Positions 9,637 to 34,212 of a stretch of 60,092 bases of DNA are shown in pieces. The DNA is from Bacteroidales bacterium. Lineage in GTDB: Bacteria; Bacteroidota; Bacteroidia; Bacteroidales; F082. The notes below the pieces were generated by a model, which was not told the origin of the DNA, did no database searches, and saw only the letters and a list, made by a program, of their open reading frames with translations. The number at the start of each line of letters is the position of its first letter. Positions within the stretch are counted from its first letter, which is position 1. The stretch covers positions 1 through 60,092 of the forward strand of contig JAGCPH010000007.1 in NCBI GenBank assembly GCA_017645275.1, read 5' to 3'. The translations under genes and the position numbers were made by a program.

Positions 9637-9668
9637 TTTGCAAGCTATTGATTTTTTTCATACCTTTG
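9637..9668 (+). promoter_or_regulatory. Promoter of the aryl polyene-type operon
   Basis: This is a textbook Bacteroidota sigma-70-type promoter: TTTG at 9637-9640, a 20-base spacer and TACCTTTG at 9661-9668. Transcription would start near 9675, about 28 bases before the ammonia-lyase gene. No promoter this clear recurs until 29146, and most genes between overlap or nearly touch, so a single transcript of about 19.5 kb is plausible. Confidence 0.75.
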
Positions 9669-9703
9669 CAAATTTGAAGAATAGTGCATTTTAGGATTGT
9701 TGT

Positions 9704-11242
9704 ATGATAACTTTTAAAGACAGAATAACTCTTGACGAAGTAGAAAAAGTCCTGTATTCAGGTGAAAATATCAGTGTTTCCGATGATTGGATGGCTCGTG
9801 TCGATGCCTGCTACCGTTTTTTAGAAAAATTCGCTGCCGAGAAGGTGATTTACGGCATAAACACTGGTTTCGGTCCGATGGCGCAATGGCGTGTCGACGA
9901 CCGATATCTCACTGATTTGCAATATAATATAATACGCAGTCACGCCACAGGCGCCGGCGAGCCCCTTGACGACGTGTATGTCAAGTCGGCGATGGTGGCA
10001 CGCCTTGGCACTGTTTTGCAATGCCGTTCAGGAGTCCATACCGATGTGGCCAATCTCTTGATTTCATTTATCAACAATGAGATTTACCCATTCATCCCGA
10101 TGCATGGCAGCGTGGGTGCGAGCGGCGACCTTGTTCAGCTGGCACATATCGCTTTATGCCTCATCGGCGAGGGTGAGGTGCATTATAAAGGCGAATGGCG
10201 CAAATCAGCGGACGTGATGAAACAACTTGGCATCACCCCTCTGAAGATGCACATCCGCGAAGGCCTCTCGATTACCAACGGCACATCAGTGATGACTGGC
10301 ATCAGCGTGGTGAACCAGCTCCATGCGGAGAATCTGCTCGACTGGGCGACTTTAGCAGCAGTCTGGATGAACGAGATTGCGTCTTCATTTGATGATTACA
10401 TGTCGGAGGGCGAAAACAACTGCCGCCGCCACGAAGGCCAACAGGTGGTTGCACGTCGTCTGCGTAAGCTTTCAGAAGGCTCACAATGCCTCAAGAAACG
10501 TGCCCATGAGCTGTACGACTACGGCCATGCTGATGTGAAGGTATTTGAGCACAAGGTGCAGGCATATTATTCGTTGCGTTGCACTCCGCAGATCCTCGGT
10601 CCCATCTACGACACCTTGCAAAACGCACGTCAAATCATTGAAGATGAACTCAATTCGGCATGCGACAACCCTATTGTCGACCCTGAAACACAATACGTTT
10701 ACCATGGCGGTAACTTCCATGGAGATTATATCTCACTGGAGGAAGACAAGGTCAAAATTGCGCTGGTGCGACTCTGTATGACAGCCGAACGACAGCTCAA
10801 CTACCTGTTCCACGACCGCATCAACAACATCCTGCCACCATTCCTCAACCTCGGGACGCTCGGCCTCAACTACGGCATGCAGGCCTGCCAGTTCACCGCC
10901 ACCTCGACAACCGCTGAGTGTCAGACACTCGCGATGCCGAACTACGTGCACAGCATCCCTAACAACAACGACAACCAGGATATCGTGAGTATGGGCACCA
11001 ACACCGCCTTGATCTGCAAACAAGTGGTCGAGAACTGCTTCCAGGTGATGGCTATACAGTACATCGCATTGGCACAGGCGACTGACTGCCTAAAAATAGC
11101 CGCCAAGCTCTGCCCTACCTCACGCAAGGTTTACGACAAGATTCGTGAGATGGTGCCGCTCTTCATCGAAGACACGCCATTCTACAAAGACATCGCCAAC
11201 GTTGAAAACTATTTGAAAACCAACAAATTGAATCTGAAATAA
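9704..11242 (+). CDS. Aromatic amino acid (tyrosine) ammonia-lyase
   Basis: A 512-residue enzyme of the HAL/PAL/TAL family, which uses an MIO cofactor formed from Ala-Ser-Gly. The triad is residues 139-141 in GSVGASGDLVQLAH. Many stretches (IYGINTGFGPMAQ, LQYNIIRSHATGAG, YHGGNFHGDYISLE, HSIPNNNDNQDIVSMG) closely match the Flavobacterium johnsoniae tyrosine ammonia-lyase as I remember it. The likely reaction is L-tyrosine to 4-coumarate plus ammonia, supplying the aryl starter unit. It is the first gene of the cluster and overlaps the reductase gene by one base. Histidine lyase activity is less likely, because no other histidine-degradation (hut) genes are near. Confidence 0.85.
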   Translation: MITFKDRITLDEVEKVLYSGENISVSDDWMARVDACYRFLEKFAAEKVIYGINTGFGPMAQWRVDDRYLTDLQYNIIRSHATGAGEPLDDVYVKSAMVARLGTVLQCRSGVHTDVANLLISFINNEIYPFIPMHGSVGASGDLVQLAHIALCLIGEGEVHYKGEWRKSADVMKQLGITPLKMHIREGLSITNGTSVMTGISVVNQLHAENLLDWATLAAVWMNEIASSFDDYMSEGENNCRRHEGQQVVARRLRKLSEGSQCLKKRAHELYDYGHADVKVFEHKVQAYYSLRCTPQILGPIYDTLQNARQIIEDELNSACDNPIVDPETQYVYHGGNFHGDYISLEEDKVKIALVRLCMTAERQLNYLFHDRINNILPPFLNLGTLGLNYGMQACQFTATSTTAECQTLAMPNYVHSIPNNNDNQDIVSMGTNTALICKQVVENCFQVMAIQYIALAQATDCLKIAAKLCPTSRKVYDKIREMVPLFIEDTPFYKDIANVENYLKTNKLNLK

Positions 11243-11970
11243 TGAAATACGCTCTTATCACCGGTGCCTCACGCGGCTTGGGAAAGGCTGTTGCTATCCG
11301 CCTCGCAAAAGACGGTTTCGCGGTGATTATCAATTATCAATCGAACAAAGAAGCTGCTGAAGACACACTGAAACAGGTGCAGGAACTCAGTGGCACTGGC
11401 GAGCTTTTGCCATTCAATGTGGCTGACCCTCAGGCTATTGAGGCGGCACTCGAAAGCTGGCAGAACGCACACCCAGACGATTATATCTCCGTTTTGGTCA
11501 ATAATGCGGGCATACGCAAGGATAACCTCATGGTTTTCATGCAGGATGAGGAGTGGAACAAGGTGCTCGACACCACTTTGAACGGATTCTTCTACATCAC
11601 ACGCAGACTTTTGAAAGACATGATGATGCACCGCAACGGTAGAATCATCAATATGGCGTCATTGTCAGGAATCAAAGGGCTTCCTGGACAGGCTAACTAC
11701 TCAGCGGCGAAGGCAGCGCTCATCGGGGCGACAAAGGCTTTGGCACAAGAGGTGGCAGCACGCAAAGTCACCGTCAACGCCATTGCACCTGGTTTCATCG
11801 CAACAGATATGACCAAGGAACTCAACGAGGACGAGCTGAAAAAGCTCATCCCGATGGGACGCTTCGGAAAACCTGAAGAAGTGGCGAGTTTGGTGTCGTT
11901 TTTGGCATCCGACGAGGCCGCTTACATCACAGGACAGACGATTTCGATTAACGGAGGATTATACACTTAA
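11242..11970 (+). CDS. 3-oxoacyl-ACP reductase (FabG-like ketoreductase)
   Basis: A 242-residue short-chain dehydrogenase. It has the NADPH-binding GASRGLGK motif at residues 8-15, the NNAG motif near 90, the catalytic Ser (NMASLSG) and the YSAAK Tyr/Lys pair, and PGFIATDM. In this cluster it probably reduces the beta-keto group after each extension of the polyene chain on ACP. The start codon overlaps the last base of the ammonia-lyase stop (TAATG). It is closely FabG-like, but its position argues for a dedicated pathway enzyme and not the housekeeping fatty-acid copy. Confidence 0.88.
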   Translation: MKYALITGASRGLGKAVAIRLAKDGFAVIINYQSNKEAAEDTLKQVQELSGTGELLPFNVADPQAIEAALESWQNAHPDDYISVLVNNAGIRKDNLMVFMQDEEWNKVLDTTLNGFFYITRRLLKDMMMHRNGRIINMASLSGIKGLPGQANYSAAKAALIGATKALAQEVAARKVTVNAIAPGFIATDMTKELNEDELKKLIPMGRFGKPEEVASLVSFLASDEAAYITGQTISINGGLYT

Positions 11971-11983
11971 GAATCAGACATTT

Positions 11984-13210
11984 ATGGCAAGAAGAGTAGT
12001 CATCACCGGCATGGGCATCTGGTCATGTCTGGGAAAAAATAAGGAAGAAGTCAGCGTTGCGCTGCGTGAAGGCAAGTCGGGCATCGGCATCGACCCGAAG
12101 CGCATCGAATATGGCTATCGCTCACCGTTGACAGGCATAGTGGAGAGGCCTCAGTTGAAAGGCAAACTCGATAGAAAGCTCCGTATGTACCTCGCTGAAG
12201 AAGGCGAATATGCTTATATGGCGACGTTGGAGGCTTTCGAGCAGGCGAAAATCACCGAGGAATACCTTTTGAATAACGAGATAGGCGTGCTTTTCGGCAA
12301 CGATTCATCCGCCAAGGCCGTCATCGAGTCGCATGAGATAGCATTGGAAAAGAAAGACACCACTTTGATAGGCTCGTCGGCAATTTTCCAGTCGATGAAC
12401 TCCACCGTGACGATGAACCTCTCGACCATCTTCCACCTGAAAGGCATCAACATGACCATAAGCGCCGCCTGTGCAAGTGGCTCACACTCAATAGGTTTAG
12501 GTGCTTTATTGATCAAAAACGGCTTACAGGACATGGTGCTGTGTGGCGGTGCTCAGGAGACCAACTACCTCTCGATGGGCAGCTTCGACGGCATCAGCGC
12601 GTTCTCGACCAGAGTCAACGACCCTACGAAGGCTTCTCGTCCATTCGACAAAGACCGTGACGGTCTCGTGCCCAGCGGCGGTGCTGCGGCATTGGTGCTC
12701 GAAGACTACGACCACGCCGTGGCTCGCGGAGCAACGATACTCGCTGAAGTCTGCGGCTACGGATTCTCGTCAAACGGCGAGAGCCACATCTCACAGCCGA
12801 GCCAGGAAGGATGCTACAGAGCCATGACACGCGCCATGAAAGAGGCTGGCGTAGAGGCAAAAGACGTCGATTACGTCAACGCACACGCCACATCAACACC
12901 GCAAGGCGACATGTTTGAGGCGATGGCATTGAAACAACTCTTCGGCGACACACACACACCTATATCCTCAACGAAATCGATGACAGGCCACGAATGCTGG
13001 ATGGCGGGCGCTAGCGAGATAGTATATTGCATCCTCATGATGCAGGGCAAATTCATCGCGCCGAACATCAACTTCGAGAAGCCTGATGAGTTTTCAGAAG
13101 GCTTGAACATCGTCAGCAAGACTACAAACAAAGAATTAGAGACTATCCTTTCCAACTCATTCGGCTTCGGTGGAACAAATAGCGCATTGATAATCAAGAA
13201 AATACATTAA
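11984..13210 (+). CDS. Beta-ketoacyl-ACP synthase (FabF-like)
   Basis: A 408-residue condensing enzyme with all catalytic elements: Cys163 in SAACASGSHS, His in VNAHATSTPQGD, Lys in SSTKSM and His in MTGHECWMAGA. The C-terminal NSFGFGGTNSALI motif is intact. It would elongate the polyene or prime chain synthesis with malonyl-ACP. It lies 13 bases after the reductase gene and 3 bases before the methyltransferase gene. It is one of three intact ketosynthases in the cluster, probably with separate roles in initiation and elongation. Confidence 0.87.
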   Translation: MARRVVITGMGIWSCLGKNKEEVSVALREGKSGIGIDPKRIEYGYRSPLTGIVERPQLKGKLDRKLRMYLAEEGEYAYMATLEAFEQAKITEEYLLNNEIGVLFGNDSSAKAVIESHEIALEKKDTTLIGSSAIFQSMNSTVTMNLSTIFHLKGINMTISAACASGSHSIGLGALLIKNGLQDMVLCGGAQETNYLSMGSFDGISAFSTRVNDPTKASRPFDKDRDGLVPSGGAAALVLEDYDHAVARGATILAEVCGYGFSSNGESHISQPSQEGCYRAMTRAMKEAGVEAKDVDYVNAHATSTPQGDMFEAMALKQLFGDTHTPISSTKSMTGHECWMAGASEIVYCILMMQGKFIAPNINFEKPDEFSEGLNIVSKTTNKELETILSNSFGFGGTNSALIIKKIH

Positions 13211-13213
13211 GAC

Positions 13214-14311
13214 ATGAAATTGTTTCCAGGTCTCGAAAAAGCATATACCAAAGAACACAAAAGAGCCGGCGAAGCTCAGGAGATGGCTTATTTCATCGCC
13301 TTCGGCCCGATAATTTTCCAGGTCGGACGACTGATGATAAAATTTGACATCCTCGACATGCTGCGCGACAGCGAGAACGGCATGACGATGGCTGAGATAG
13401 CAGCAAAAACAGGCCTTTCCGACTACGCCGTCAAGGTGTTGATGGAAGGCTCGCTCTGCATCGGGCTGGTGATTTTGGATAAAGACACCGACCGTTTCAC
13501 CATATCGAAGACAGGATTTTTCCTTCTCACCGACCCTTCCATCCGCGTGAACATCGACTTCAATCACGACGTGAACTATGAAGGATGGTTTAAGCTTGAG
13601 GAGGCGCTGAAAGAAGGAAAACCTGCAGGTTTGGAGCATTTCGGCAATTGGCCAACCATCTATGAAGGCCTCTCGCAACTTCCCGAACAGGTTCAGAAAA
13701 GCTGGTTCGGCTTCGACCACTTTTATTCCGATCACTCATTCGACCAGGCTCTGCAGATTGTGTTTAGCAACAAAACAAAGACCTTGCTCGATGTGGGCGG
13801 AAACACTGGACGTTGGGCACTTCGCTGCGTAGATTTCGACGAGAATGTCAACGTCACCATCATGGATCTTCCGCAGCAGCTCGAGATGATGAAGAAATTC
13901 ACCAACGGCAAGAAAGGCTTCGAGCGCATCAACGGCTACGGCATCAACTTACTTGATGACAACCAGCAATTTCCAACCGACAAACACTACGATGTGATCT
14001 GGATGAGCCAGTTTTTGGATTGTTTCGGCGAAGACGAGATACTCAGCATCGTTTCGAGAGCAGCTAAGATTATGGACAAAGACAGCCGTCTGTGCATCAT
14101 GGAGACGTTTTGGGACCGCCAGAACTACCCTGCTGCTGCCTTCGCACTGACAATGACATCGTTGTATTTCACTGCTTTAGCTAATGGAAACAGCAAGATG
14201 TACCACTCCGACGATATGGAACGTCTCGTGAAAAAGGCCGGTTTGGTGGTCGAGACGATACATGATGGTTTGGGACATGGACACAGTATTATGGTTTGCA
14301 AGAAAGTTTAG
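13214..14311 (+). CDS. SAM-dependent methyltransferase
   Basis: A 365-residue protein resembling the O-methyltransferase family 2/dimerisation-domain class. An N-terminal winged-helix-like segment (MTMAEIAAKTGLSDYAVKVLMEG, about 58-80) precedes a Rossmann SAM-binding motif, LLDVGGNTGRWALR, near residue 192, and a VTIMDLPQQLEMM second motif. Late motifs SRLCIMETFWD and SMYHS-like strands follow. It probably methylates the aryl ring or its hydroxyl; related pigments carry ring methyl groups. It sits three bases after the ketosynthase gene. The exact target atom cannot be read from the sequence. Confidence 0.75.
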   Translation: MKLFPGLEKAYTKEHKRAGEAQEMAYFIAFGPIIFQVGRLMIKFDILDMLRDSENGMTMAEIAAKTGLSDYAVKVLMEGSLCIGLVILDKDTDRFTISKTGFFLLTDPSIRVNIDFNHDVNYEGWFKLEEALKEGKPAGLEHFGNWPTIYEGLSQLPEQVQKSWFGFDHFYSDHSFDQALQIVFSNKTKTLLDVGGNTGRWALRCVDFDENVNVTIMDLPQQLEMMKKFTNGKKGFERINGYGINLLDDNQQFPTDKHYDVIWMSQFLDCFGEDEILSIVSRAAKIMDKDSRLCIMETFWDRQNYPAAAFALTMTSLYFTALANGNSKMYHSDDMERLVKKAGLVVETIHDGLGHGHSIMVCKKV

Positions 14312-14376
14312 AGTGTAAAGTGTATAGTTTAGAGTAGTTTTAAAGTTTTAAGTTGAAAGTTAAAAGTTTATTTTAT
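14312..14376. repeat. AT-rich simple repeat before the first ACP gene
   Basis: Sixty-five bases made of drifting copies of AGTTTAAAGT-like units (TAAAGTTTTAAGTTGAAAGTTAAAAGTTTA). It interrupts an otherwise gap-free operon directly before an ACP gene. No clear promoter is visible. A similar stretch precedes the second ACP gene at 18060. Confidence 0.6.
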
Positions 14377-14619
14377 ATGAATAGGGAAGAAATAGAAGCA
14401 AAGGTTAAAGAGTTCATGATTGAGGATCTTGAACTTGACGAGGAAAAGATCAAGCCGGAGGCACGTCTTAAGGAAGATATCGGCATCGACAGCCTCGATT
14501 TCGTTGACATCGTGGTCATCGTCGAGCGCAAATTTGGTTTCAAAATCAAGACCGAAGAGATGGCTAACGTCAAGACATTCAAAGATTTCTGCGATTATAT
14601 CGAGAAGAAGACAGCCTAA
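14377..14619 (+). CDS. Acyl carrier protein (first of two)
   Basis: An 80-residue acidic ACP. Ser39 in GIDSLDFVD is the phosphopantetheine attachment site, and helix II (SLDFVDIVVIVERKFGFKI) follows the family pattern. The frame extends upstream to a TTG at 14353 through the AT-rich repeat, but the ATG at 14377 gives the normal N-terminus (MNREEIEAKVKEFM). It would hold the growing aryl polyene. It stands alone between the methyltransferase and the LpxL-like acyltransferase. Confidence 0.92.
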   Translation: MNREEIEAKVKEFMIEDLELDEEKIKPEARLKEDIGIDSLDFVDIVVIVERKFGFKIKTEEMANVKTFKDFCDYIEKKTA

Positions 14620-14622: not shown

Positions 14623-15516
14623 ATGGCCGACGCTCTGCAACATAACGAATGGTCAGGTAAAACGGGAGGACTTCCGTGGATGCAGCGCTCGCTCATCGTC
14701 ATGTTTCGTGTGCTGCCGTTGTGGCTGCCATATGGCGTGATGGCGTTGGTGGTACCTTTCTACATGATTTTCAATGGGAAAGGCCGCAAAGCGATGTATC
14801 AGTTTTTCAGAAAACGCATTGGCTACGGTCGCTGGAAGTCGTTTTGGCACGTCTACGCGAACCATTTCCGTTTCGGTCAGATAATCCTGGACCGATTCTG
14901 TGTGTATGCAGGCAAAAAATATCACTTGGTCTCTGAAGGTCAAGAACTTATGGATGAATTAGAAAAGCATTCGGAAGGTTTTGTAAACTTAAGCAGTCAT
15001 GTTGGAAATTACGAGATCGCAGGATATTCGTTAAAGCCTAAGGCAAAGAGATTCAATGCGTTAGTATTCGCTGGCGAGACCGACACGGTGATGGAGAACC
15101 GTCAGCGGCTGCTTTCGCAAAACAATATGAGGCTGATTTTGGTGAAGGAAGACTTGTCACATCTGTTTGAGCTTAACGCTGCCATCGACAATGGCGAGAT
15201 TGTGAGCATGCCTGCTGACAGAATCTTCGGCTCGCAGAAAGCTGCGGAATGCCAGTTTTTCGGTAAGAAAGCGAGATTTCCGTTAGGGGCGTTTGCCTTG
15301 GCAGCCCAGAAAAACGTGTCGGTGTTGACGGTCTTCGTGATGAAAGAAGGTTACAAGAGCTATCATGCGTATGTCCGTGATATTAAATGCGACAGAGAAG
15401 CCAATATACGCACACAGATGTCTCAGCTGGCGCAAAGTTTTGCTTCAAATCTCGAGGAGATAGTTAGGAAATACCCGACGCAATGGTTCAACTATTTTGA
15501 CTTTTGGAAACAATGA
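14623..15516 (+). CDS. LpxL/HtrB-like acyltransferase
   Basis: A 297-residue member of the lipid A acyltransferase-like (LPLAT) family. An N-terminal hydrophobic segment (MFRVLPLWLPYGVMALVVPFY, about 27-47) would anchor it in the inner membrane. The H-x4-[DE] active site is seen as SSHVGNYE near residue 130, and MPADRIFGS fits the second block. It could transfer the finished polyene from ACP to a lipid acceptor. It lies 3 bases after the ACP gene, and its stop overlaps the next start (ATGA at 15513-15516). Confidence 0.8.
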   Translation: MADALQHNEWSGKTGGLPWMQRSLIVMFRVLPLWLPYGVMALVVPFYMIFNGKGRKAMYQFFRKRIGYGRWKSFWHVYANHFRFGQIILDRFCVYAGKKYHLVSEGQELMDELEKHSEGFVNLSSHVGNYEIAGYSLKPKAKRFNALVFAGETDTVMENRQRLLSQNNMRLILVKEDLSHLFELNAAIDNGEIVSMPADRIFGSQKAAECQFFGKKARFPLGAFALAAQKNVSVLTVFVMKEGYKSYHAYVRDIKCDREANIRTQMSQLAQSFASNLEEIVRKYPTQWFNYFDFWKQ

Positions 15517-15950
15517 GAGAGATAAAAGACATACCGTTAAACGAGCTGATTCCACAGCGGCCGCCTTTCGTGATGATTGACAGGCTGTTGTCGAGCGACG
15601 CGGTGTATTCGGTGACGGAGCTGGAGGTAAGAAATGATAATATTTTCGTTGAAGATGAACGACTTACAGCCTCAGGACTGATTGAAAACATCGCTCAGAC
15701 ATGTGCCGCACGCATCGGATACATCAACCTCAACAACGGTGGCACGGTGAAAATCGGCGTCATCGGTTCGATAAGCAACTTGAATGTCACGCGGACGCCA
15801 AAAGTAGGAGAAAGATTGACGACGACGATACAGCTTCTCGAAGAGGTGTTTAACGTGACGATGGTGCTCGCCTCAATCAAGATTGGAGAAGAGGAAATTG
15901 TTAGTGCGAACATGAAGATAGCCTTGACGGATATCGACTCAAAAGATTGA
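15513..15950 (+). CDS. Hotdog-fold dehydratase-like protein (ApeP/FabZ-like)
   Basis: A 145-residue hotdog protein related to beta-hydroxyacyl-ACP dehydratases. It starts with LIPQRPPFVMIDRLL, which matches the FabZ PHRYPFLLVDRV block with Gln in place of His. The segment where FabZ has catalytic HFPG..P is shortened (NIFVEDERLTASG), while the following helix keeps the Glu (LIENIAQTCAA). The catalytic His therefore appears to be missing, and the protein may be a structural or partner subunit of the active dehydratase at 21554. The ATG at 15513 overlaps the previous stop; an upstream TTG at 15504 is less likely. Confidence 0.7.
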   Translation: MREIKDIPLNELIPQRPPFVMIDRLLSSDAVYSVTELEVRNDNIFVEDERLTASGLIENIAQTCAARIGYINLNNGGTVKIGVIGSISNLNVTRTPKVGERLTTTIQLLEEVFNVTMVLASIKIGEEEIVSANMKIALTDIDSKD

Positions 15951-15955
15951 TTATC

Positions 15956-16390
15956 ATGGGAAAAGAAAAGGTATTATCGGTTACTAAGCCATTCGACATC
16001 CGTTTCAGCGAGGTCGACTCGATGGGTGTGGTGTGGCACGGACATTATGCCATGTATTTTGAGGATGCACGTGAGGAATTCGGCAAGAAATATCATCTCG
16101 AATATCTTTTCATGTACGACCAAGGCTTTTTCGAGCCACTCGTCGAGCTGACTTTCAAATACAAGAAGCCGTTGATTTACGGCATGAAACCCGAGATCAC
16201 GATAACATACCTCCCTACCGAGGCCGCCAAGATAGTGTTCGACTACGAGATTCGCGACACGGCTACGGGCGAGGTCTACGTGACAGGCCACTCGGTGCAG
16301 GTTTTCATGGACAAAACCAACTATCAGATGGTGCTTTACAGCCCTGATTTTTATGAGGAATGGAAGAAAAAATGGGAGGTAAACGTATGA
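15956..16390 (+). CDS. Acyl-CoA/ACP thioesterase, YbgC/4HBT family
   Basis: A 144-residue hotdog thioesterase. The block RFSEVDSMGVVWHGHYAMYFEDARE carries the Asp and following residues typical of the 4-hydroxybenzoyl-CoA thioesterase family. It may release or proof-read stalled acyl chains on ACP, or hydrolyse an aryl thioester. The ATG at 15956 is preferred over an in-frame TTG at 15947. Its stop (TGA at 16388-16390) overlaps the next start, so the two are translationally coupled. Confidence 0.8.
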   Translation: MGKEKVLSVTKPFDIRFSEVDSMGVVWHGHYAMYFEDAREEFGKKYHLEYLFMYDQGFFEPLVELTFKYKKPLIYGMKPEITITYLPTEAAKIVFDYEIRDTATGEVYVTGHSVQVFMDKTNYQMVLYSPDFYEEWKKKWEVNV

Positions 16391-17505: not shown

Positions 17506-18059
17506 TCAAACATCAGGTCTACATATCGCCAAACGAGGTAAAAGTCAATGGTAAATCGTTGACAATCAACGGCTGCGGTTCGACAATACTCACCGAATTG
17601 TATCGCAGTCAGGTAGGCGACTATCCGAAGTTTTTCAAGATGGACACCTTGAGCAAAGTCGGTTTCATTGCTTCGGAACTGCTTTTAAATGCTGAAGGAT
17701 ACAGAGGTTTCGAGCCCCGCGAGGACCGTGCCGTCATCTTCTTCAACAGAAACGCCTCGTTGCAGGCCGACACACATTACCAGTCGACGATACAAAATCC
17801 CGAGAACTACTTCCCTAGCCCGGCCGCGTTCGTATACACTTTGCCAAACATCGTGACAGGTGAAATCGCTATACGGAACAAGTATTTCGGAGAGACATCG
17901 TTCATGGTTATCGACGATTTTGATGAAAAAATAATAATGAAAAACCTCGAAAACGCGTTTCAGGACCCCATCACGAAAAGCATCATCGGCGGGTGGGTCG
18001 ACTGCAGCGACGAAGAGCATTTTGAGGCACGCATATTTTTAATGGAAAAAGATAATTGA
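17502..18059 (+). CDS. Truncated ketosynthase-like protein without active-site Cys
   Basis: A 185-residue protein that resembles only the N-terminal half of a ketosynthase. It has strands and helices like AVIFFNRNASLQADTHYQSTI, then SPAAFVYTLPNIVTGEIAIRNKYFGETSFMVID, the segment just before the KS active site. The catalytic Cys and both His motifs are absent. It may act as a chain-length-factor-like or docking partner for the ketosynthase upstream, with which its start overlaps (ATGA). It does not look like a broken gene: the same kind of KS-like sequence forms the second half of the protein at 18363. Confidence 0.6.
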   Translation: MIKHQVYISPNEVKVNGKSLTINGCGSTILTELYRSQVGDYPKFFKMDTLSKVGFIASELLLNAEGYRGFEPREDRAVIFFNRNASLQADTHYQSTIQNPENYFPSPAAFVYTLPNIVTGEIAIRNKYFGETSFMVIDDFDEKIIMKNLENAFQDPITKSIIGGWVDCSDEEHFEARIFLMEKDN

Positions 18060-18104: not shown

Positions 18105-18362
18105 ATGGACGAATTGATTTACAAACTGAAACAGCAGATTATCGAGGCTTTGAACCTCGAAGACATGAAACCGGAAGACATCGACGATAATGCCTCATTG
18201 TTTGGCGAAGGCCTTGGCCTCGACAGCATTGACGCTCTTGAACTTATCGTGATGATGGAGAAAAACTACGGCATCAAGCTGCAGGATCCGGCACAGGGCA
18301 AAGAGATCTTCAAGTCGGTGGCTGTGATGGCCGATTTCATTGCAAAGAACAGGACAAAATAA
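18105..18362 (+). CDS. Acyl carrier protein (second copy)
   Basis: An 85-residue ACP. Ser41 in GLGLDSIDALEL is the phosphopantetheine site. It is distinct from the first ACP (longer loop after helix II, QDPAQGKEIFKS), so the two may carry starter and extender or serve different ketosynthases. Its stop is directly followed by the start of the KS fusion gene at 18363 with no gap. Confidence 0.92.
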   Translation: MDELIYKLKQQIIEALNLEDMKPEDIDDNASLFGEGLGLDSIDALELIVMMEKNYGIKLQDPAQGKEIFKSVAVMADFIAKNRTK

Positions 18363-21551: not shown

Positions 21552-21553
21552 CC

Positions 21554-26193: not shown

Positions 26194-29153
26194 AAAAATG
26201 CATCATCATAGGAAGCGGATTAGGAGGCTTGTCCACTGGAGTAATCTTGGCCAAAAACGGCTATGACGTGACTGTTTTGGAGCAGGCCAATCAAGTTGGA
26301 GGATGCCTTCAATGCTTCCAACGTGATGGTGCAAAGTTCGAGACCGGCATGCATTTCATCGGCAGTCTGGATGACGGACAGATACTCTCGAACTATCTTA
26401 ACTATTTGGAAATCAAGGATAAAATCGTTGTTGACAAGCTTGACGAAAACGCTTACGATATCGTTTCCATAAATGGCGAACGTTTTGCATTCCCTAATGG
26501 TCGTGAGGCTTTTATCGATTATTTTTCAAGACGTTTTCCAAATCAACGCGAGAACCTGAAACGCTATTATGACTTGGTCGAACAAGTTGCCAATCTGTCG
26601 CCATACCGCGACTTGAAACTTCTCGACGATGATAATTTTTTCAAGAGTAACGAACTGTTATTCAAGAGTATAAACGAGATTCTCGATGCCACTATCACTG
26701 ACCCGACTCTGAGAAATGTGCTGGTCGGCAACATCTCGCTTTACTCGGCAGAGATTGACAAGACGCCATTTGCGATACACGCTTTCATCTTCGATTTTTA
26801 CAACAACGGCGCATTTCGCATCGTAGAAGGCAGCGACACCATCGCTAAAGCATTGACCGACATTTTGTTACGCTACGGCGGACGAGTGCTGACGCACAAA
26901 AAAGTGAGTCAAATCGTAGTGGAAAACAAGATTGCTGTTGGTGTCAAAACTGCAAACGGTGATTTTTATCCTGCCGACATTGTAATATCAGATATAAATC
27001 CGAAGCAACTTATTGATATTGTTGATAATAGCGTCTTTAACGAGGCATACAAATCCAGAATTCGTGACATCAACAACACCAATTCCGTTTTCTCGCTTTA
27101 TTTGCGCTTCAAAGACGAGGCGATGCCGTATTTTAACTCAAACTTCTATGGTTTTCAATTAGTTACGCCATGGGAGATGAGTGGAAAGGTCGACGAGAAA
27201 TGGCCGAATGGCTATCTTTATATGCATCATTGCCATGAGAAAGAGCCGAGATTCGCTAAAAGCGGAGTTATTCTTTCTTACATGTCGATTGACGCCTTAT
27301 CACAATGGAAAGACACTAAAATCGGCCATAGAGGCATTGATTATGAACGCTTTAAGCAAGAGATGGCAGATCGTTTGCTCGATGAGGTAGAAAAAGACTT
27401 TCCAGGATTACGCGACAAAATTGCCGACTATTATTCTGCCACGCCACTTACCTACCGCGACTACACCTCCACGCCTGACGGCTCGATTTACGGTCTTGCC
27501 AAAGACGTGTCAAAAGGCATCACGGGAAGGGTTTCATATAAAACAAAAGTGTCGAATCTGTTCTTAGTTGGTCAAAATATCAACTCGCACGGCATGCTTG
27601 GAGTTCTCGTCGGCACAATGACAGTGTGTTCGCAACTCATTGGCGAACAAGAGGTTAAGCGACAGATGATTGAAGCCAACCGCAAGACCACACTCATCAT
27701 CGGAGGCGGTCTGGGAGGCCTCGTGACAGGTGCACTGTTAACCAAAGAAGGCTATAAGGTCACGGTGTTGGAGAAAAACGGCACCATCGGGGGCGGATTG
27801 CAGTCATTTTACAGGAACAATGTGGAATTTCCAACTGGCATGCATATCTTCGGAGGCTTCAGCGAAGGCGGAAATCTAAAGAAAATCTTTGATTATCTTG
27901 ATATTACGTCAAAACTTCATCTTGTTCCAACAGACGCCGACGCTTCGGATGTAGTGACGGTAACCGAAGACAACACGACTTATCATCTTCCGACAGGCAA
28001 AGATAATCTTATAAATTATCTTTCCAAAATCTTCCCTGAAGAGGCTGAAAACATCAGAAATTATATCGCAAAGCTGTTTGAGTTATCGCACGAAGAAGAC
28101 CTTTTCTATCTTCGCGAAAGCTCGACTGCACCTAATTTCTCATCTTTGAGCCAAGACTTCCTGATGCCATATAACTCATTGATAGACAGATATATAAGCA
28201 ATCCAAAATTAAAGCGATTGTTGAGTTATCTAAGCCCGTTATTCGGTGGTGTGGAAGGCATGACACCGGCATTTTTCAATGCTTTGCTTAGCGTTTTGCA
28301 CATCAACGGCACGTTCCAGTTTGCCGGAGGCAGCCAACAGATGGCCAATTTGCTGAAAAATGTGATAGAAAACGGTGGAGGCAAAGTCATAGCAAACGAA
28401 GAAGTAGTAAAAATAAACGTTGACAATCATTTAGTTACAGACGTTTTAACTAAAAAAGGCAACACCTACAAAGCCGACAGTTACATATCCGACGTTCATC
28501 CCGACGTGCTGCTTAATGTCATTTCAGATAACGCATTCCCTACAGCCTTCAAGAAAAGAATTCATTCGATTCCAGAGTCCGCATCGAGTTTTAAAGTTTA
28601 TATAAAATTCAAGGACAAGGCTTTCAGATATGTCAATCATCCGTGCTATTACATTGATAATCAGAAAGATTGGCCAAATCAATTCATGTGCGTGACGCCG
28701 CCTGTCGAGAATCAGGACGAGTTTGCGAAGACGATGGTTGTCATAAGTCCGATGGAATTTGAGCAAGTAAAGAAATGGGAAGACACCCGAACGGGGCATC
28801 GTGGCAAGGATTATGAGACTTGGAAACAAGCTATGACAGAAAAACTGCTTGACCTTGTGGAGAAGATATATCCGGAAATCCGCAACAGCATTGAGTTTTC
28901 GTTCGCTTCCTCCCCTCTCACCATACGCGATTACTACGGCAACAAAGAAGGCTCGAACTACGGATTCCAGAAAGACAGCAACGACCTCATGCTCTCGCAA
29001 ATGTCTGTGTTTACTAAGGTTAAAAACCTATTCCTTACAGGACAAAATGTCAACATCCATGGTTTTTGTGGAGTATCGATAACAGCCATCGAGACAGCCG
29101 AAGCCATAGTCGGACACAACGAAATTGTAAGAAAAATCAATAAAATTTGTTGA
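26190..29153 (+). CDS. Tandem fusion of two CrtI-like FAD oxidoreductases
   Basis: A 987-residue protein made of two homologous halves. Each begins with an FAD-binding GxGxxG fingerprint: IIGSGLGGLSTGVILAK...VTVLEQ near residue 5 and IIGGGLGGLVTGALLTK...VTVLEK near residue 503. Each then has GMHxxGG/S and YSS/FASSPLT-type strands, and ends in a LFLxGQNxNxHG motif. This is the phytoene desaturase/carotenoid isomerase family. A natural guess is desaturation or cis-trans isomerisation of the polyene. The start overlaps the exporter gene (ATGA), so it is the last gene of the first transcription unit. Confidence 0.82.
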   Translation: MKKCIIIGSGLGGLSTGVILAKNGYDVTVLEQANQVGGCLQCFQRDGAKFETGMHFIGSLDDGQILSNYLNYLEIKDKIVVDKLDENAYDIVSINGERFAFPNGREAFIDYFSRRFPNQRENLKRYYDLVEQVANLSPYRDLKLLDDDNFFKSNELLFKSINEILDATITDPTLRNVLVGNISLYSAEIDKTPFAIHAFIFDFYNNGAFRIVEGSDTIAKALTDILLRYGGRVLTHKKVSQIVVENKIAVGVKTANGDFYPADIVISDINPKQLIDIVDNSVFNEAYKSRIRDINNTNSVFSLYLRFKDEAMPYFNSNFYGFQLVTPWEMSGKVDEKWPNGYLYMHHCHEKEPRFAKSGVILSYMSIDALSQWKDTKIGHRGIDYERFKQEMADRLLDEVEKDFPGLRDKIADYYSATPLTYRDYTSTPDGSIYGLAKDVSKGITGRVSYKTKVSNLFLVGQNINSHGMLGVLVGTMTVCSQLIGEQEVKRQMIEANRKTTLIIGGGLGGLVTGALLTKEGYKVTVLEKNGTIGGGLQSFYRNNVEFPTGMHIFGGFSEGGNLKKIFDYLDITSKLHLVPTDADASDVVTVTEDNTTYHLPTGKDNLINYLSKIFPEEAENIRNYIAKLFELSHEEDLFYLRESSTAPNFSSLSQDFLMPYNSLIDRYISNPKLKRLLSYLSPLFGGVEGMTPAFFNALLSVLHINGTFQFAGGSQQMANLLKNVIENGGGKVIANEEVVKINVDNHLVTDVLTKKGNTYKADSYISDVHPDVLLNVISDNAFPTAFKKRIHSIPESASSFKVYIKFKDKAFRYVNHPCYYIDNQKDWPNQFMCVTPPVENQDEFAKTMVVISPMEFEQVKKWEDTRTGHRGKDYETWKQAMTEKLLDLVEKIYPEIRNSIEFSFASSPLTIRDYYGNKEGSNYGFQKDSNDLMLSQMSVFTKVKNLFLTGQNVNIHGFCGVSITAIETAEAIVGHNEIVRKINKIC

Positions 29154-29178
29154 AGTAATTAAAAGTTTCGTATATTTG
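29146..29178 (+). promoter_or_regulatory. Promoter of the second cluster unit
   Basis: TTTG at 29146-29149, a 21-base spacer and TATATTTG at 29171-29178. The -33 element lies within the last codons of the tandem oxidoreductase gene. Transcription would start near 29185, about 22 bases before the radical SAM gene. Confidence 0.6.
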
Positions 29179-29206: not shown

Positions 29207-30508
29207 ATGGAAACTATAAAGCTGAAACTTATTTACCCTAAGTGGAACAAGCTTCCAGGTCAGACGACATTCAATTTGCCGCCTCACGGACCAGTAGCTT
29301 TTGCCGCCACCTTGCCTGAATATGTAGACATCTCGTTCACCGACGAGAACGTGGAACCCATTGATTTTGATGAGGAATGCGATCTCGTAGCTTTGTCGAT
29401 GATGCTCACCACACAGGTAAAACGAGGCTGGGCCATCGCCGACGAATATCACAAGAGAGGCAAGAAAGTCATTGCGGGAGGCATCTCGACCATGCTTCAT
29501 GCCGAGGAGATGGTAAACCACGTCGACAGCGTGTTTCTCGGTGAGTCGGAAGGCCGCTCGGAGCAGGTGATTTTGGACTGGAAGAACGGCTGTCTGAAGA
29601 AGATTTACAACTACATGGGCAACCAGCCTGACATCGCTTTGGTGGGACCATGCCGCCGTGACCTATACAAGCGCGAGCTGTACAACCACAAAGGCGTGCA
29701 AATGGTCGATTTGTTCCATGCAAGCCGAGGATGCCGTTTCAGCTGCTACCCTTGCGCAGTTTCATATCTTGGAGGTAGAAAATTCCGTCCACGTCCGGTC
29801 GACAAGGTGGTGGAAGACATGGCAGGCATCGACAACAACCGCCTGTTTATCGTCGATAACTCGTTGGCGCAGAACAAAGAATGGGAAAAAGAGCTGTTTA
29901 CAGCCATAGCCCCACTGAAGAAAAAATGGATCAGCCATACAATTGAAGACGATCCCGAAATCCTCGATCTAGCTTCAAAAGCGGGCGCTTGGTACGTGTA
30001 TCAAGCCGTTTACGACACATCAGATTATATCAAAGAACGTGTAAAACGCTACCATGACTACGGCATAGGAGTGGAAGGGACAATACTCTTTGGCCTTGAT
30101 AACCAAACAGAAGACGACATAAAACGATTAATTGACTTCCTTGGCGAAATCGATTTGGACTTGGCAGAGTTTACAATTTTTGCACCATTCCCGCACACCA
30201 AAGGACATGACGACTTGCTGCGCCAGGGACGTATTTTCGACTTCGACTGGGATCATTACAACGCCGGTCAGGTGGTTTACCAGCCGAAGAACATGTCGCC
30301 GGAGAAGCTGCAAGACCTCTACGACTATGCTTGGAAGAGCTTCTACGCCAGCGAGACACAGGAATCGAAGATGTTCCGCCTCTTCTGCAACGTGGCTTTG
30401 CGCGAAATGGAAGAAGGCACATATCGTCCGCGTGACAGACGATTGATAAACAAATCTTTCGGCCGTGATGTGGACCGCAGCAAGAGAAATGTTAACGTCC
30501 GTGTTTAA
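29207..30508 (+). CDS. B12-binding-type radical SAM protein
   Basis: A 433-residue radical SAM enzyme. Residues 1-130 resemble a cobalamin-binding domain (CDLVALSMMLTTQVKRGW, GKKVIAGGIS, VDSVFLGESEG). The iron-sulfur motif is Cys176-x3-Cys180-x2-Cys183 (RGCRFSCYPCAV). The barrel continues with RLFIVDNSLAQ, GVEGTILFGLD and FTIFAPFPHTKGHD. Such enzymes often methylate unreactive carbons or rearrange rings. In this cluster it may modify the aryl ring or the polyene, but the substrate is unknown. A palindromic repeat follows it. Confidence 0.78.
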   Translation: METIKLKLIYPKWNKLPGQTTFNLPPHGPVAFAATLPEYVDISFTDENVEPIDFDEECDLVALSMMLTTQVKRGWAIADEYHKRGKKVIAGGISTMLHAEEMVNHVDSVFLGESEGRSEQVILDWKNGCLKKIYNYMGNQPDIALVGPCRRDLYKRELYNHKGVQMVDLFHASRGCRFSCYPCAVSYLGGRKFRPRPVDKVVEDMAGIDNNRLFIVDNSLAQNKEWEKELFTAIAPLKKKWISHTIEDDPEILDLASKAGAWYVYQAVYDTSDYIKERVKRYHDYGIGVEGTILFGLDNQTEDDIKRLIDFLGEIDLDLAEFTIFAPFPHTKGHDDLLRQGRIFDFDWDHYNAGQVVYQPKNMSPEKLQDLYDYAWKSFYASETQESKMFRLFCNVALREMEEGTYRPRDRRLINKSFGRDVDRSKRNVNVRV

Positions 30509-30566: not shown

Positions 30567-30929
30567 ATGAAGGTTTCAAAAGAATATTATGATGAGATTT
30601 TTGAATTCAAAGGCGAATGGGACATGGAATCGTCTTGTGGATTGAAAATCAGAGAGATAGATGGTAAAAAATATGTCATCGTGACTGAGTTGTATCAAGA
30701 TAACCCAGGTACATCAGTGACATATGCGGGTAAGAAACTCGCCGACCAGATCTGCGAAGCAAAAGGCTTGGATTTGAAAGACATAATATACTTGGAATGC
30801 ACACCAAACACCAATTCTAAGCTTTCATTTTACGACGAGGAGTATTTTCAAGTAGATTTCTTTGCCGACACGCAGCACAAATACCGCCAGTTATCGAAAG
30901 AAGAAGTGATGAAGATTTTGGGCAGATAA
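30567..30929 (+). CDS. Conserved-looking protein of unknown function
   Basis: A 120-residue soluble protein that I do not recognise. No signal peptide or membrane segment is visible. It looks alpha/beta, with an acidic N-terminus and strands such as GKKYVIVTELY and IIYLECTPN. Its only Cys residues are Cys26 (in MESSCGL), Cys69 (in DQICEA) and Cys84 (in LECTPN), and there is no obvious metal site. Its stop overlaps the esterase start by one base (TAATG), so it is translated together with that gene and belongs to the second cluster unit. Confidence 0.6.
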   Translation: MKVSKEYYDEIFEFKGEWDMESSCGLKIREIDGKKYVIVTELYQDNPGTSVTYAGKKLADQICEAKGLDLKDIIYLECTPNTNSKLSFYDEEYFQVDFFADTQHKYRQLSKEEVMKILGR

Positions 30930-31792
30930 TGTTGAGAAAATTATTGATATTCAGTATAATAGCTATTCTTGCCATTAGAGCTTATGCACAAAAGCCAATT
31001 TATTTATGGCAAGGTCAGGACGTGAGTCACGGCAAGCAGGTGACGTTGACGCCGTTTTTGGCTGAAAACAACACTGACGGGACAGCGGTTATCGTTTGTC
31101 CGGGCGGCAGTTATTTCTGGCTCGACGACGTCAACGAAGGCGAAGAAGTAGCGGAATGGCTGCAAAATCAAGGCATCTCAGCGTTTGTGCTGCGTTACAG
31201 GGCGGCAGGCTTCGGCGCGTTTTTCTGGCATAACAGACGTGTTTTTCGCGGCAAGCAGCATCCCGATATGCTTGATGACGCACAGCAAGCAATCACATAT
31301 TTGAAAGAGCATTCCAGCGAGTATCGCATAGACCCTAACCGATTGGGAATCATAGGGTTTTCGGCAGGCGGACACCTTGCCATGATGACAGCATGTTTTT
31401 CCGACAAGGAAGAAAACCAGCCTGCTTTTGTAGGCGCTATCTATCCAGTAGTGACGATGAACGAGCCTTATGTGCATGAACGTTCACGCAGGGCTTTGCT
31501 TGGTGAACGCAAGCAAAACATCCAGCTGATGCGTGACTCGTTGTCGATGGAACGACACATCCCCGACGACTGTCCTCCAGTGTTTGTCATCAACTGTATG
31601 GACGACGAAACCGTTGATTATCAAAACTCTATCCTACTCGATTCAGCTTTGACCGCAAAAAAGATAGATCACAAATACATTCTTTACAACACCGGCGACC
31701 ACGGCTTCGGCGTAAGCGAGGTTTATGGCAGCGAGGAATGCCGACAATGGAAATATGAATTTTTGGAATGGCTTGATGAAATCAAGCTCTAA
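30929..31792 (+). CDS. Exported alpha/beta-hydrolase (carboxylesterase)
   Basis: A 287-residue serine hydrolase with a signal peptide (MLRKLLIFSIIAILAIRAYA). The oxyanion block CPGGSYFWL, nucleophile Ser145 in GFSAGGH, Asp in CMDDETVDYQ and His in TGDHGFG make a full catalytic set. It resembles acetyl-xylan-esterase/endo-xylanase-type esterases of Bacteroidota (Abhydrolase_3/DLH). Within this unit it may cut or form an ester bond of the polyene lipid in the periplasm. A polysaccharide esterase role is possible but no carbohydrate genes are next to it. Confidence 0.75.
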   Translation: MLRKLLIFSIIAILAIRAYAQKPIYLWQGQDVSHGKQVTLTPFLAENNTDGTAVIVCPGGSYFWLDDVNEGEEVAEWLQNQGISAFVLRYRAAGFGAFFWHNRRVFRGKQHPDMLDDAQQAITYLKEHSSEYRIDPNRLGIIGFSAGGHLAMMTACFSDKEENQPAFVGAIYPVVTMNEPYVHERSRRALLGERKQNIQLMRDSLSMERHIPDDCPPVFVINCMDDETVDYQNSILLDSALTAKKIDHKYILYNTGDHGFGVSEVYGSEECRQWKYEFLEWLDEIKL

Positions 31793-31804
31793 CATCACAA
31801 GATT

Positions 31805-33103
31805 ATGATTAACAACGACATAGAATACAAATCAGCAGAAGAGATTAAGGCTTTTCAAGAGGAATTGCTTCACAAGGCTTTGGTTTATCTGAAAGATAAC
31901 TCGCCTTACTACCAGAGGATGTTCAAGAGCTACGGCATCAACATCGATAAAATCCGTCATATCGAGGATTTAGTGAAGATTCCATTCACCGAAAAGAAAG
32001 ACTTACAGCTTTTCAACGACGAGTTTTTATGCTGTCCGAAAGCTAAAATCATCGATTATATCACTACTTCAGGCACTCTCGGCGACCCTGTGACGTTTGG
32101 ATGCACAGAGAATGACCTGCAACGCTTGGCTTTCAACGAGAAAAAGTCTTTTGAATGTGCTGGCGTTCATCCCGGCAACATAGTCCAACTAATGACCACC
32201 CTGGACAAGCGTTTCATGGCGGGACTGGCTTATTTTCTTGGGCTTCGCGAGCTTGGTGCCAGCGTCATCAGAGTCGGCAACGGCATCCCGGAGCTGCAAT
32301 GGGACACTATCCGTCGCATTAAGCCCGACACCATCATGTGCGTGCCGTCGTTCATACTGAAACTCATCCAATACGCCGAAGAGCATAATATCGACTATAA
32401 AAACAGCAGCATCCGCCGTATAATCGGCATCGGCGAAGGCCTGCGCGACCAGAACTTTGAGCTCAACCTTCTTGGCCGAAAAATCAAGGAGAAATGGGAT
32501 GTGCAGCTGTTTGCAACATATTCCTCTACCGAGATGGGCGCCACCTTCTCGGAATGCGAGTACGGACTGGGCGGCCATGTGCATCCGGAACTCATCATTG
32601 TGGAGATCATCGGTGAAGACGGTCTGCCTGTTCCTGACGGCCAGCCAGGCGAGATAGTGGTGACGACACTTGGCGTGGAAGGCATGCCACTGCTGCGTTT
32701 TCGCACAGGCGACATAGCGGCGAAGATAGTGGAGCAATGCAAATGCGGACGTAACTCCTACCGCCTCACTCCTCTCGTGGGACGCAAAAACAACATGATA
32801 AAACTCAAAGGCACAACGCTGTATCCGCCTGCGATAAACGACGTTTTGGACAACACTGACTATGTTGAGAATTATGTGATTGAAGTCAAACAAAGCGAGG
32901 CTGGCACCGACGACGTAGTGGTAAAAATCGGCCTGAAATACCAGCCTGATTTCGATGTGGTGAAAGAATTAAAAGACAGCTTCCGTTCACGCATCAGAGT
33001 AGCTCCGCAGATCGAGGTGCATCCCGTGGAGGAGATTCAGAAGATAAACTATCCGGCGAAGAGCCGTAAACCCATAAAATTCATCGACTTAAGAAACAAA
33101 TGA
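31805..33103 (+). CDS. PaaK-like acyl/aryl-CoA ligase
   Basis: A 432-residue adenylating enzyme of the phenylacetate-CoA ligase family. The phosphate-binding loop is TTSGTLGDPVTFG near residue 79, followed by the ATYSSTEMG block and the LLRFRTGDIA block, and the C-terminal lid holds LVGRKNNMIKLKGTTLYP. It would activate an aryl or acyl acid with ATP, most simply the 4-coumarate made by the ammonia-lyase, for loading onto CoA or ACP. It lies 12 bases after the esterase gene and overlaps the next gene by four bases. Confidence 0.8.
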   Translation: MINNDIEYKSAEEIKAFQEELLHKALVYLKDNSPYYQRMFKSYGINIDKIRHIEDLVKIPFTEKKDLQLFNDEFLCCPKAKIIDYITTSGTLGDPVTFGCTENDLQRLAFNEKKSFECAGVHPGNIVQLMTTLDKRFMAGLAYFLGLRELGASVIRVGNGIPELQWDTIRRIKPDTIMCVPSFILKLIQYAEEHNIDYKNSSIRRIIGIGEGLRDQNFELNLLGRKIKEKWDVQLFATYSSTEMGATFSECEYGLGGHVHPELIIVEIIGEDGLPVPDGQPGEIVVTTLGVEGMPLLRFRTGDIAAKIVEQCKCGRNSYRLTPLVGRKNNMIKLKGTTLYPPAINDVLDNTDYVENYVIEVKQSEAGTDDVVVKIGLKYQPDFDVVKELKDSFRSRIRVAPQIEVHPVEEIQKINYPAKSRKPIKFIDLRNK

Positions 33104-34212
33104 TGGCTAATTTCGACGACATACGACCTTACAACGCGGAGGAGTTTCCTGCCGCCATGCAACGCATCGCCGACAGCGAGCTCATTCCATCGATTGCCGA
33201 CTTCCTGATGCCGGGTATCGACCCGGAAGTGTTACGCGACAAGATTCGCAATATCAAAAATATCACTGAGTTACAGCTTAGCTTTTTAAAAGAAGTCATT
33301 GAGATTTTGCTGAAAAAGACCACCACACAATTCGACTGGTCGGGCATGGAAAACATCAGCGAGAAGAAACCGTATCTGTTTGTCTCGAACCACCGTGACA
33401 TAGTGCTCGACGCTATGTTTTTGCAGTATATACTGAACGCCGGTGGGCACAATACCTGTCAGATCACCTTTGGAAGCAACCTCATGGAACACCCTATGGT
33501 CGTCGACTTCGGCAAGGCCAACAAGATGTTCCGTACCGAGCGCGGCGGCAACCGCATGGAGTTTTACAACAATTTGATGCACATGTCGGAGTATATGCGC
33601 CACGTCATCACGGAGGAGAAGGAGTCGGTGTGGATCGCACAGCGCAATGGCCGCACCAAAGACGGCATCGACGCCACCGACCCTGCCATCATCAAGATGT
33701 TTTGGATGAGCCGCAGAGACGACAAAGTAAAATCATTGGCGGAGTTGAACATAGTGCCAGTGGCTGTCTCATACGAGTGGGAATCGTGTGACAAGCTGAA
33801 AACGCTTGAGCTTTACGCGACTAAGGTCAACGGACGATACGAAAAACGACCTGGCGAAGACCTCAACAGCATCATCACAGGCATAATACAACCCAAGGGA
33901 CACGTGCATTTCCACATCTGTGAGCCTGTGACGGAAGCCGACCTACAGAGGATGGACAACAACCCTGGCGACTACTTCAACAATATCGCCAAGCTGATGG
34001 ACGAACGTATCAACGCGGGATATATGTCGATGTCAAACAACTTCATTGCCAACGACTTACGCAGTGAATCAAACAAATACGCCAGCCATTACACCGAGAA
34101 GCAGAAAAACGATTTCCTGCAATACATGAATTGGATCGAGATGTACAAAGACCTCGACCAGGCACTTTTAAGAGATATCTTCTTGGGAATTTACGGCAAC
34201 TCGGTGAGATAA
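33100..34212 (+). CDS. Glycerophosphate-type acyltransferase (LPLAT family)
   Basis: A 370-residue cytoplasmic acyltransferase. The active-site block is VSNHRDIVLDAM near residue 93, the H-x4-D type. RTERGGNRMEF and VWIAQRNGRTKDGID correspond to later family blocks. It resembles 1-acyl-glycerol-3-phosphate acyltransferases of Bacteroidota but lacks a clear N-terminal membrane helix. It starts at the ATG that overlaps the ligase stop (ATGATG; the second ATG is also possible). Its last 22 bases overlap the end of the convergent transglutaminase gene. Confidence 0.75.
   Translation: MMANFDDIRPYNAEEFPAAMQRIADSELIPSIADFLMPGIDPEVLRDKIRNIKNITELQLSFLKEVIEILLKKTTTQFDWSGMENISEKKPYLFVSNHRDIVLDAMFLQYILNAGGHNTCQITFGSNLMEHPMVVDFGKANKMFRTERGGNRMEFYNNLMHMSEYMRHVITEEKESVWIAQRNGRTKDGIDATDPAIIKMFWMSRRDDKVKSLAELNIVPVAVSYEWESCDKLKTLELYATKVNGRYEKRPGEDLNSIITGIIQPKGHVHFHICEPVTEADLQRMDNNPGDYFNNIAKLMDERINAGYMSMSNNFIANDLRSESNKYASHYTEKQKNDFLQYMNWIEMYKDLDQALLRDIFLGIYGNSVR

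Follow-up and report, generated by a model that had tools for sequence, protein, structure and literature searches.

The window analysed here is a stretch of 60,092 nucleotides, contig C2 of a 2.0-Mb, 54-contig Bacteroidales genome that is 82% complete. It carries a cluster of 23 genes at positions 9704–34212, all on the forward strand, whose neighbours overlap or are closely spaced in the map of open reading frames. We propose that the cluster encodes a Bacteroidales pathway of the flexirubin type without a detectable resorcinol arm (the proteins DarA and DarB), and that its product is a tyrosine-primed, ring-methylated, lipid-anchored aryl polyene that undergoes one extra radical step; we give this reading a probability of about 0.7. 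For comparison, 21 flx clusters or pieces of clusters were matched gene by gene, with two more FlxA regions and ten further stretches added (from G114, G064, G151, G133, G146, G087, G138, G042, G206 and G457; our handles begin with G for genomes, C for contigs and L for loci).

Genes of the cluster

The first gene encodes the tyrosine ammonia-lyase FlxA (9704–11242; NCBIfam NF053541, 835.7 bits against a cut-off of 700), with ASG at residue 139; Ala-Ser-Gly is the motif that forms the methylidene-imidazolone (MIO) group of ammonia-lyases. The genome encodes one more aromatic lyase, on contig C6. FlxA is followed by the ketoreductase FlxB of the short-chain dehydrogenase/reductase family (11242–11970; NF053542, 412.2 bits, cut-off 340), by the ketosynthase KS1 (11984–13210), and by a FlxJ-family methyltransferase that likely acts in ring C-methylation (13214–14311; NF053543, 593.8 bits, cut-off 560). 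Two acyl carrier proteins (ACPs) are present, ACP1 (14353–14619, TTG start as listed; PF00550) with its serine in DSL and ACP2 (18105–18362; NF006617, 84.4 bits, cut-off 70) with its serine in DSI. Besides KS1 there is a second ketosynthase (16360–17505), and a third is fused to a degenerate ketosynthase in a protein of 745 residues (18363–20600), the two being separate genes in most relatives compared. A motif search found the Cys-His-His set in three intact ketosynthases, among them KS1 and the second enzyme, and did not find the set again in the C-terminal half of the fusion. DH1, a FabZ-like hot-dog protein (15504–15950), matches fabZ models below cut-off at an E value of about 2e-6, and its predicted activity is doubtful because it reads PQR where FabZ has PHR; DH2 is an ApeI/FabA-like dehydratase (21533–21931; PF07977, 28.4 bits). 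A 4HBT thioesterase (15947–16390; PF13279, 47.1 bits) precedes the second ketosynthase, which is in turn followed by orf198 (17463–18059), a protein without assigned function that has homologues in most flx clusters compared. In six clusters (L100, L126, L140, L145, L146, L148) orf198 is seemingly fused to the preceding ketosynthase, in proteins of 559–588 residues, and this ties it to that enzyme.

Near the other end of the cluster lies FlxY, a PaaK-like 4-coumarate-CoA ligase (31805–33103; NF053551, 703.2 bits, cut-off 520). Ketosynthases, ACPs, ketoreductase, dehydratase and a ligase for the aryl starter are thereby found within one cluster, and the aryl polyene/flexirubin layout primed by a tyrosine lyase, which an earlier sequence-only reading of this DNA had described, is borne out in all its named parts. 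That reading also listed the PaaK-like ligase as an added enzyme, which it is not: the protein passes the FlxY model, and in the account of Chitinophaga pinensis FlxA and FlxY were assayed as tyrosine ammonia-lyase and 4-coumarate-CoA ligase, respectively (PMC3992019). We accordingly reject a ligase foreign to the pathway.

A tandem CrtI-like FAD oxidoreductase of 987 residues (26190–29153), with two GxGxxG sites and halves that are 34% identical, had likewise been regarded as an extra. This holds for its fused second copy and not for the enzyme as such, since five of six DarA/B-bearing clusters of other orders (G021, G030, G065, G101, G194) carry a CrtI-like gene; we therefore reject a CrtI-like enzyme foreign to flexirubin clusters. 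The CrtI proteins of these five clusters, all of which carry FlxY, are 35–38% identical to the N-terminal half of the tandem. The sixth cluster, in G114, has FlxY and no match to CrtI, MMPL, LolA or the family 2 glycosyltransferase (GT2) in 44.7 kb. Full-length matches to the tandem occur in 15 genomes of the window's genus, and others match about one half; the map of G257 has a single CrtI gene, and G418 has two separate CrtI genes at that place. Only the fused duplication of the CrtI-like enzyme is special to the cluster in the window.

Further genes of the cluster encode an LpxL-type acyltransferase (14623–15516; PF03279, 57.4 bits), a small EamA/ArnE-F-like membrane protein (20603–20956; PF00892, 41.8 bits), a LolA2-like periplasmic carrier whose score is slightly below cut-off (20958–21551; NF053544, 117.5 bits against 125), the GT2 enzyme (21918–22670; PF00535), an MMPL exporter fused to an acyltransferase (22663–26193; PF03176 and PF01553, NHQSHLD at residue 900), a BD-FAE-type esterase/hydrolase (30929–31792; PF20434, 82 bits), and a glycerolphosphate-type acyltransferase, AT3 (33100–34212; PF01553, 36 bits). 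Homologues of AT3 are found in G209, G318 and G418 as well; since G209 carries DarA/B in addition, AT3 alone cannot substitute for the resorcinol.

The division into two transcription units, as drawn in the sequence-only reading, is reasonable. Matches to TTTG-N-TAnnTTTG, which we take to be a Bacteroidales-type promoter pattern, head both the run from flxA to the CrtI-like gene (9637–9668, forward strand, TTTG-N20-TACCTTTG, 35 bases 5' of flxA) and the run from the radical S-adenosylmethionine (SAM) gene to AT3 (29146–29178, forward strand, TTTG-N21-TATATTTG, 5' of the radical SAM gene). Across the window the pattern matches 18 times, against a mean of 1.37 in shuffled sequences, some of the 18 being intragenic. 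A promoter-like site within 200 bp 5' of the radical SAM gene was found in only 10 of 77 related loci, three loci being left out, so a separate second unit is not general among them. Directly upstream of the cluster, at 7620–9602, lies a gene for a CotH-domain protein with lamin-tail and type IX sorting domains.

The radical SAM–orf120 pair

The second unit opens with a B12-type radical SAM protein (29207–30508; PF04055, 30.0 bits, cut-off 29.5), in which CRFSCYPC at residue 176 provides the CxxxCxxC radical SAM core that class B (cobalamin-dependent) radical SAM methyltransferases also have. By profile its closest solved structures are AprD4 (E 7e-15), 9ccb, TsrM and TokK, the matches extending over the radical SAM core. 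The next gene encodes orf120 (30567–30929), 120 residues long, for which no family was found and for which a profile search against solved structures gave a best E value of 0.08.

How tightly is this pair bound to flx genes? We took the best 80 of 328 loci with radical SAM relatives, ranked by radical SAM similarity. Since this choice biases radical SAM identity upward, comparisons of identity within a locus are safer. In these best 80 of 328 loci orf120 shares the locus throughout, at least one of FlxY, MMPL, CrtI, GT2, the ketosynthase fusion and AT3 is present in 80 of 80, and at least two are present in 79; the cluster's first genes mostly lie outside the loci. Within them radical SAM identity exceeds that of FlxY in 71 of 72 loci, that of MMPL in 64 of 64 and that of ACP2 in 27 of 27. 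In the gene-by-gene comparison of clusters, ACP2 surpasses the radical SAM protein in G257 (84% against 79%), and FlxY and orf120 do so slightly in G496 (92% against 91%). Nearly all of the 80 are labelled Bacteroidales, Bacteroidaceae, Bacteroidia or similar, and many come from ruminant or horse gut; L085 is labelled Clostridiales and is possibly a mislabelled bin. Locus L054, from the cultured Caecibacteroides pullorum, encodes a radical SAM orthologue of 89% identity, with no FlxY seen in the locus.

An orthologue (E ≤1e-100) is present in 18 genomes of the order sample, 12 of them with FlxA (Fisher p 2e-6, with genomes treated as independent, though related) and seven with DarB, and 16 of the 18 neighbourhoods hold flx homologues in the same stretch of up to 20 kb, the window itself supplying one of the neighbourhoods. 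In G489 and G414 the gene is masked in the map by a longer antisense frame, and its position was taken from the protein search; in G441 the gene lines up with DarA and FlxA. The window's genus has 21 carriers (at least 79% identity), all with FlxA and CrtI. In a class sample of 198 genomes, 192 of them outside the window's own order, 34 score above the cut-off for FlxA; a radical SAM match (E ≤1e-60) was found in a single genome, the window's own, and in none of the 192. The gene is thus a true extra relative to the DarA/B clusters of other orders, as the sequence-only reading had it, and yet within Bacteroidales it recurs beside flx homologues. A literature search found no paper combining 'flexirubin' and 'radical SAM' and, among the matches listed, none combining 'aryl polyene' and 'radical SAM'.

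It is conceivable that the pair serves another product, for instance a sulfated lipid, and that its only tie to the polyene genes here is shared location or regulation. We consider this unlikely, but several observations do weigh against a role in the polyene pathway. Of the 18 carriers in the order sample, six show no FlxA, and two (G342, G453) lack any flx homologue in the neighbourhood of the radical SAM gene; conversely, three FlxA-positive genomes of the genus (G295, G307, G314) do not have the gene. The pair and FlxA lie on different contigs in G209. Genes similar to those for the 134-residue protein and the BtrH-like protein of other-order clusters, together with sulfotransferase-like genes, precede the radical SAM gene in G209, G250, G411 and G468, with an ACP in the last three, and the same matches without an ACP lie near the pair in G361 (the sulfotransferases being called by Pfam in G209 and G250, by blastp in G468 and G361, and by eye in G411). 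All five genomes (L116, L117, L121, L163, L156) have DarB. Because of this company, and because of the separate contig in G209, the substrate of the pair may be something other than the polyene. The promoter-like site of the second unit also fits an independent role. Nor is the chemistry straightforward: the B12-binding domain PF02310 scores 25.2 bits, below its cut-off of 32.1, and AprD4 catalyses a reaction other than methylation, so methylation by this protein is a guess. What speaks for the polyene is the proximity to flx homologues in 16 of the 18 orthologues of the order sample and in all of the best 80 of 328 loci, the position of the gene between CrtI or C45-type acyltransferase (AAT) genes and FlxY in several genomes, and the presence of FlxA in 21 of 21 carriers of the genus.

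Some neighbourhoods of the pair differ in composition. In G354 and G464 (L160:9414–14355, L154:4294–8986) it is followed by thioesterase-like, two enoyl-CoA-hydratase-like and β-ketoacyl-ACP synthase III (KAS III)-like genes, named by sequence reading except for the KAS III of G354, which was called by Pfam; they possibly form an alternative tail module. Other genera of the family hold tandem arrays of three to four B12-radical SAM paralogues, about 28–37% identical to the window protein; one lies near an ACP-like gene (G206:C14, L130:6035–11439), and others are in G233, G207 and G216.

The pair should be distinguished from the route to ring methylation. The sequence-only reading had recorded a plain methyltransferase, which is present, and had overlooked that, as FlxJ, it already offers a ring modification. 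Among the clusters compared FlxJ occurs in 11 (G206 included) and a second B12-radical SAM family in five (G407, G411, G414, G418, G506), never both; some show neither, several pieces are incomplete, and weak matches were not counted (a 23% methyltransferase in G361, a 23% radical SAM protein in G250). The second family (L140:11259, L146:8790, L138:9746, L122:3455, L167:9414) is encoded between LpxL-type and dehydratase-like genes, the same slot that FlxJ occupies in G073, G336 and G420; in the window FlxJ sits between KS1 and ACP1. By best blastp hit its members in G411, G506 and G407 are 24–27% identical to the window's radical SAM protein, and the one in G418 is unmatched. This pattern suggests that ring methylation is carried out by the second family in place of FlxJ. 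The window-type protein occurs alongside FlxJ in the genus, and alongside the second, slot-type family in G411 and G414; we therefore set it aside as a replacement for FlxJ, and it probably performs a separate step. In C. pinensis the polyene ring of flexirubin derives from tyrosine and its ring methyl from methionine, and ring methylation differs among known flexirubins, as that account describes (PMC3992019). The exchange of FlxJ and the second family gives a direct test of the methylation route.

DarA and DarB in the genome and genus

As queries for DarA and DarB we aligned proteins from four flx-linked loci of other genomes, picked by place, size and similarity to KAS III, which we take to be DarA and DarB. 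The dar pair of C. pinensis (Cpin_6850/6851, darB/darA) lies far from flxA–flxY (Cpin_1853–1877) (PMC3992019), so its absence from one cluster means little and a genome-wide test was needed. In a family sample of 119 genomes (thresholds E ≤1e-150 for FlxA, ≤1e-40 for DarB and ≤1e-10 for DarA), FlxA-positive genomes number 24 in the window's genus and 34 in other genera. DarB was found in none of the 24, 12 of which are at least 98% complete, against 31 of the 34 (exceptions G202, G227 and G255; matched as a fragment only in G223 and G246), a contrast with a Fisher p of 2e-13 when genomes are treated as independent, though they are related. DarA gave 33 matches in the family sample, that of G227 being a fragment, and none in the genus. 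That no DarA/DarB-like genes are seen, as first stated for the window, holds there and extends to the recovered genome and to the FlxA-positive genomes of the genus; the search beyond the cluster, which the sequence-only reading had named as the place where its view could fail, found none.

The genus is one clear case among others. In the order sample of 198 genomes, 36 have FlxA, 23 have DarB and 18 have both, so half of the FlxA carriers are without DarB at threshold. G354, which has no DarB at threshold, carries a KAS III 23% identical to DarB near its radical SAM gene.

Could the cluster nevertheless belong to a true flexirubin pathway, with DarA and DarB in the unrecovered part of the genome? 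The metagenome-assembled genome is 82% complete, dar genes stand apart in C. pinensis (PMC3992019), and in G073, G506 and G411 DarB lies at a distance from FlxA or on a separate contig. However, the negative searches across the genus, and the single KAS III C-terminal domain of the recovered genome, which belongs to a FabH-like protein, make this very improbable, and we likewise judge it unlikely that dar genes were missed through incompleteness. FlxA and FlxY are present; as DarA and DarB were found neither in the recovered genome nor in any of the FlxA-positive genomes of the genus, the cluster probably makes something other than a flexirubin proper. As a chemical marker, flexirubin is taken to indicate Bacteroidetes (PMC3992019). 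For the members of this genus that carry FlxA, the missing DarA/DarB predict that such a label would be wrong.

Proposed pathway and relation to known systems

We propose the following model for the resorcinol-free, flexirubin-type pathway. FlxA would convert tyrosine to 4-coumarate and FlxY would activate it to 4-coumaroyl-CoA, which the ketosynthases, FlxB, a dehydratase and the two ACPs would extend to an aryl polyene acid. FlxJ would methylate the ring at a site that we infer. Without DarA and DarB, the LpxL-type, MMPL-fused and AT3 acyltransferases would probably pass the polyene acid to a lipid, the likely anchor, and MMPL and LolA would carry this lipid to the outer membrane. E. coli-type aryl polyenes follow such a lipid transfer and outer-membrane delivery. 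The radical SAM protein and orf120 would account for a step of their own, for which C-methylation or some other radical modification of chain or ring is most likely. Product, chain length, lipid anchor, FlxJ site and radical chemistry are predictions in this model. The lipid-linked aryl polyene with modified ring or chain suggested by the sequence-only reading is plausible to this extent: the acyltransferase, LolA and MMPL genes are there and FlxJ offers a ring change, the product being deduced from genes.

We speculate, tentatively, that the genus makes a distinct class of resorcinol-free, tyrosine-derived polyene lipids, with dedicated radical SAM–orf120 chemistry (chain or ring C-methylation, or cyclisation) not known from the flexirubins of other orders. 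As the gut habitat is dark, light protection would not be their purpose. Clusters of this class have been recorded from gut bacteria before, one arylpolyene cluster having been compared to that of flexirubin in a gene scan (PMC12940132); what the present analysis adds is the absence of dar genes in the genus together with the radical SAM pair. Conserved as it is, the pair marks an uncharacterised tailoring step in Bacteroidales of many herbivore guts.

Clusters of Kuenenia for fatty acids (proposed ladderanes) also combine radical SAM and phytoene-desaturase-like enzymes with diverged ketosynthases (PMC2649909). The resemblance of the window cluster lies in its ketosynthase paralogues, CrtI-like and radical SAM genes; an aryl starter is not described in the available part of that source. 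By this analogy the tandem CrtI-like and radical SAM enzymes might rework the polyene into a cyclised hydrocarbon, in line with a weak match to the ladderane radical SAM family TIGR04072, but 36.5 bits falls well short of the cut-off for that model (360), TIGR04013 gives a better score (56.5 bits) and CrtI-like genes are common in flexirubin clusters, so that we regard this as highly improbable.

Matched gene by gene with the five other-order DarA/B clusters that carry CrtI (G021, G030, G065, G101, G194), the window cluster is without DarA, DarB, the 134-residue protein (for which no family was found), the BtrH-like protein, an ABC permease, a polysaccharide deacetylase and the C45-type acyltransferase (AAT, PF03417), and adds the EamA-like protein, radical SAM, orf120, the BD-FAE esterase, AT3 and the fused second CrtI. 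A distant ABC ATPase (34%) is encoded outside the cluster, at 58374. FlxA alone does not mark a full cluster: seven other-order stretches of up to 20 kb on one side of FlxA (G064, G151, G133, G146, G087, G138, G042) have FlxB and KS1 beside it, except in the 2-kb G151 piece, and show no FlxY or radical SAM pair, the best CrtI match being 22–23% (G064). FlxA may serve shorter or split pathways too. Six other-order genomes (L104, L107–L111) have FlxA, FlxB, KS1 and ACP1, five of them with an LpxL-type gene, and no FlxY in the one-sided stretch.

The ape clusters of Gammaproteobacteria combine a type II polyketide synthase with two ACPs, LpxL- and glycosyltransferase-type enzymes, LolA and an MMPL exporter, and make no resorcinol. 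Likened by gene content rather than sequence, the window cluster differs in being primed by a tyrosine ammonia-lyase and a PaaK-like ligase, and it adds FlxJ, CrtI and radical SAM. By models and descriptions it resembles the flexirubin clusters of C. pinensis and F. johnsoniae, sharing FlxA, FlxB, FlxJ and FlxY by NCBIfam models. The C. pinensis cluster, as described, has ketosynthase, dehydratase, thioesterase, LolA, glycosyltransferase and exporter genes as in the window, and the same start from tyrosine ammonia-lyase and 4-coumarate-CoA ligase (PMC3992019); in contrast to that species, neither the recovered genome nor the genus has yielded DarA or DarB. A further counterpart, by description, is the arylpolyene cluster of the gut bacterium Bacteroides xylanisolvens, likewise a flexirubin-like cluster of a gut member of the Bacteroidales, which is reported to be similar to and syntenic with the flexirubin cluster of C. 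pinensis (PMC12940132).

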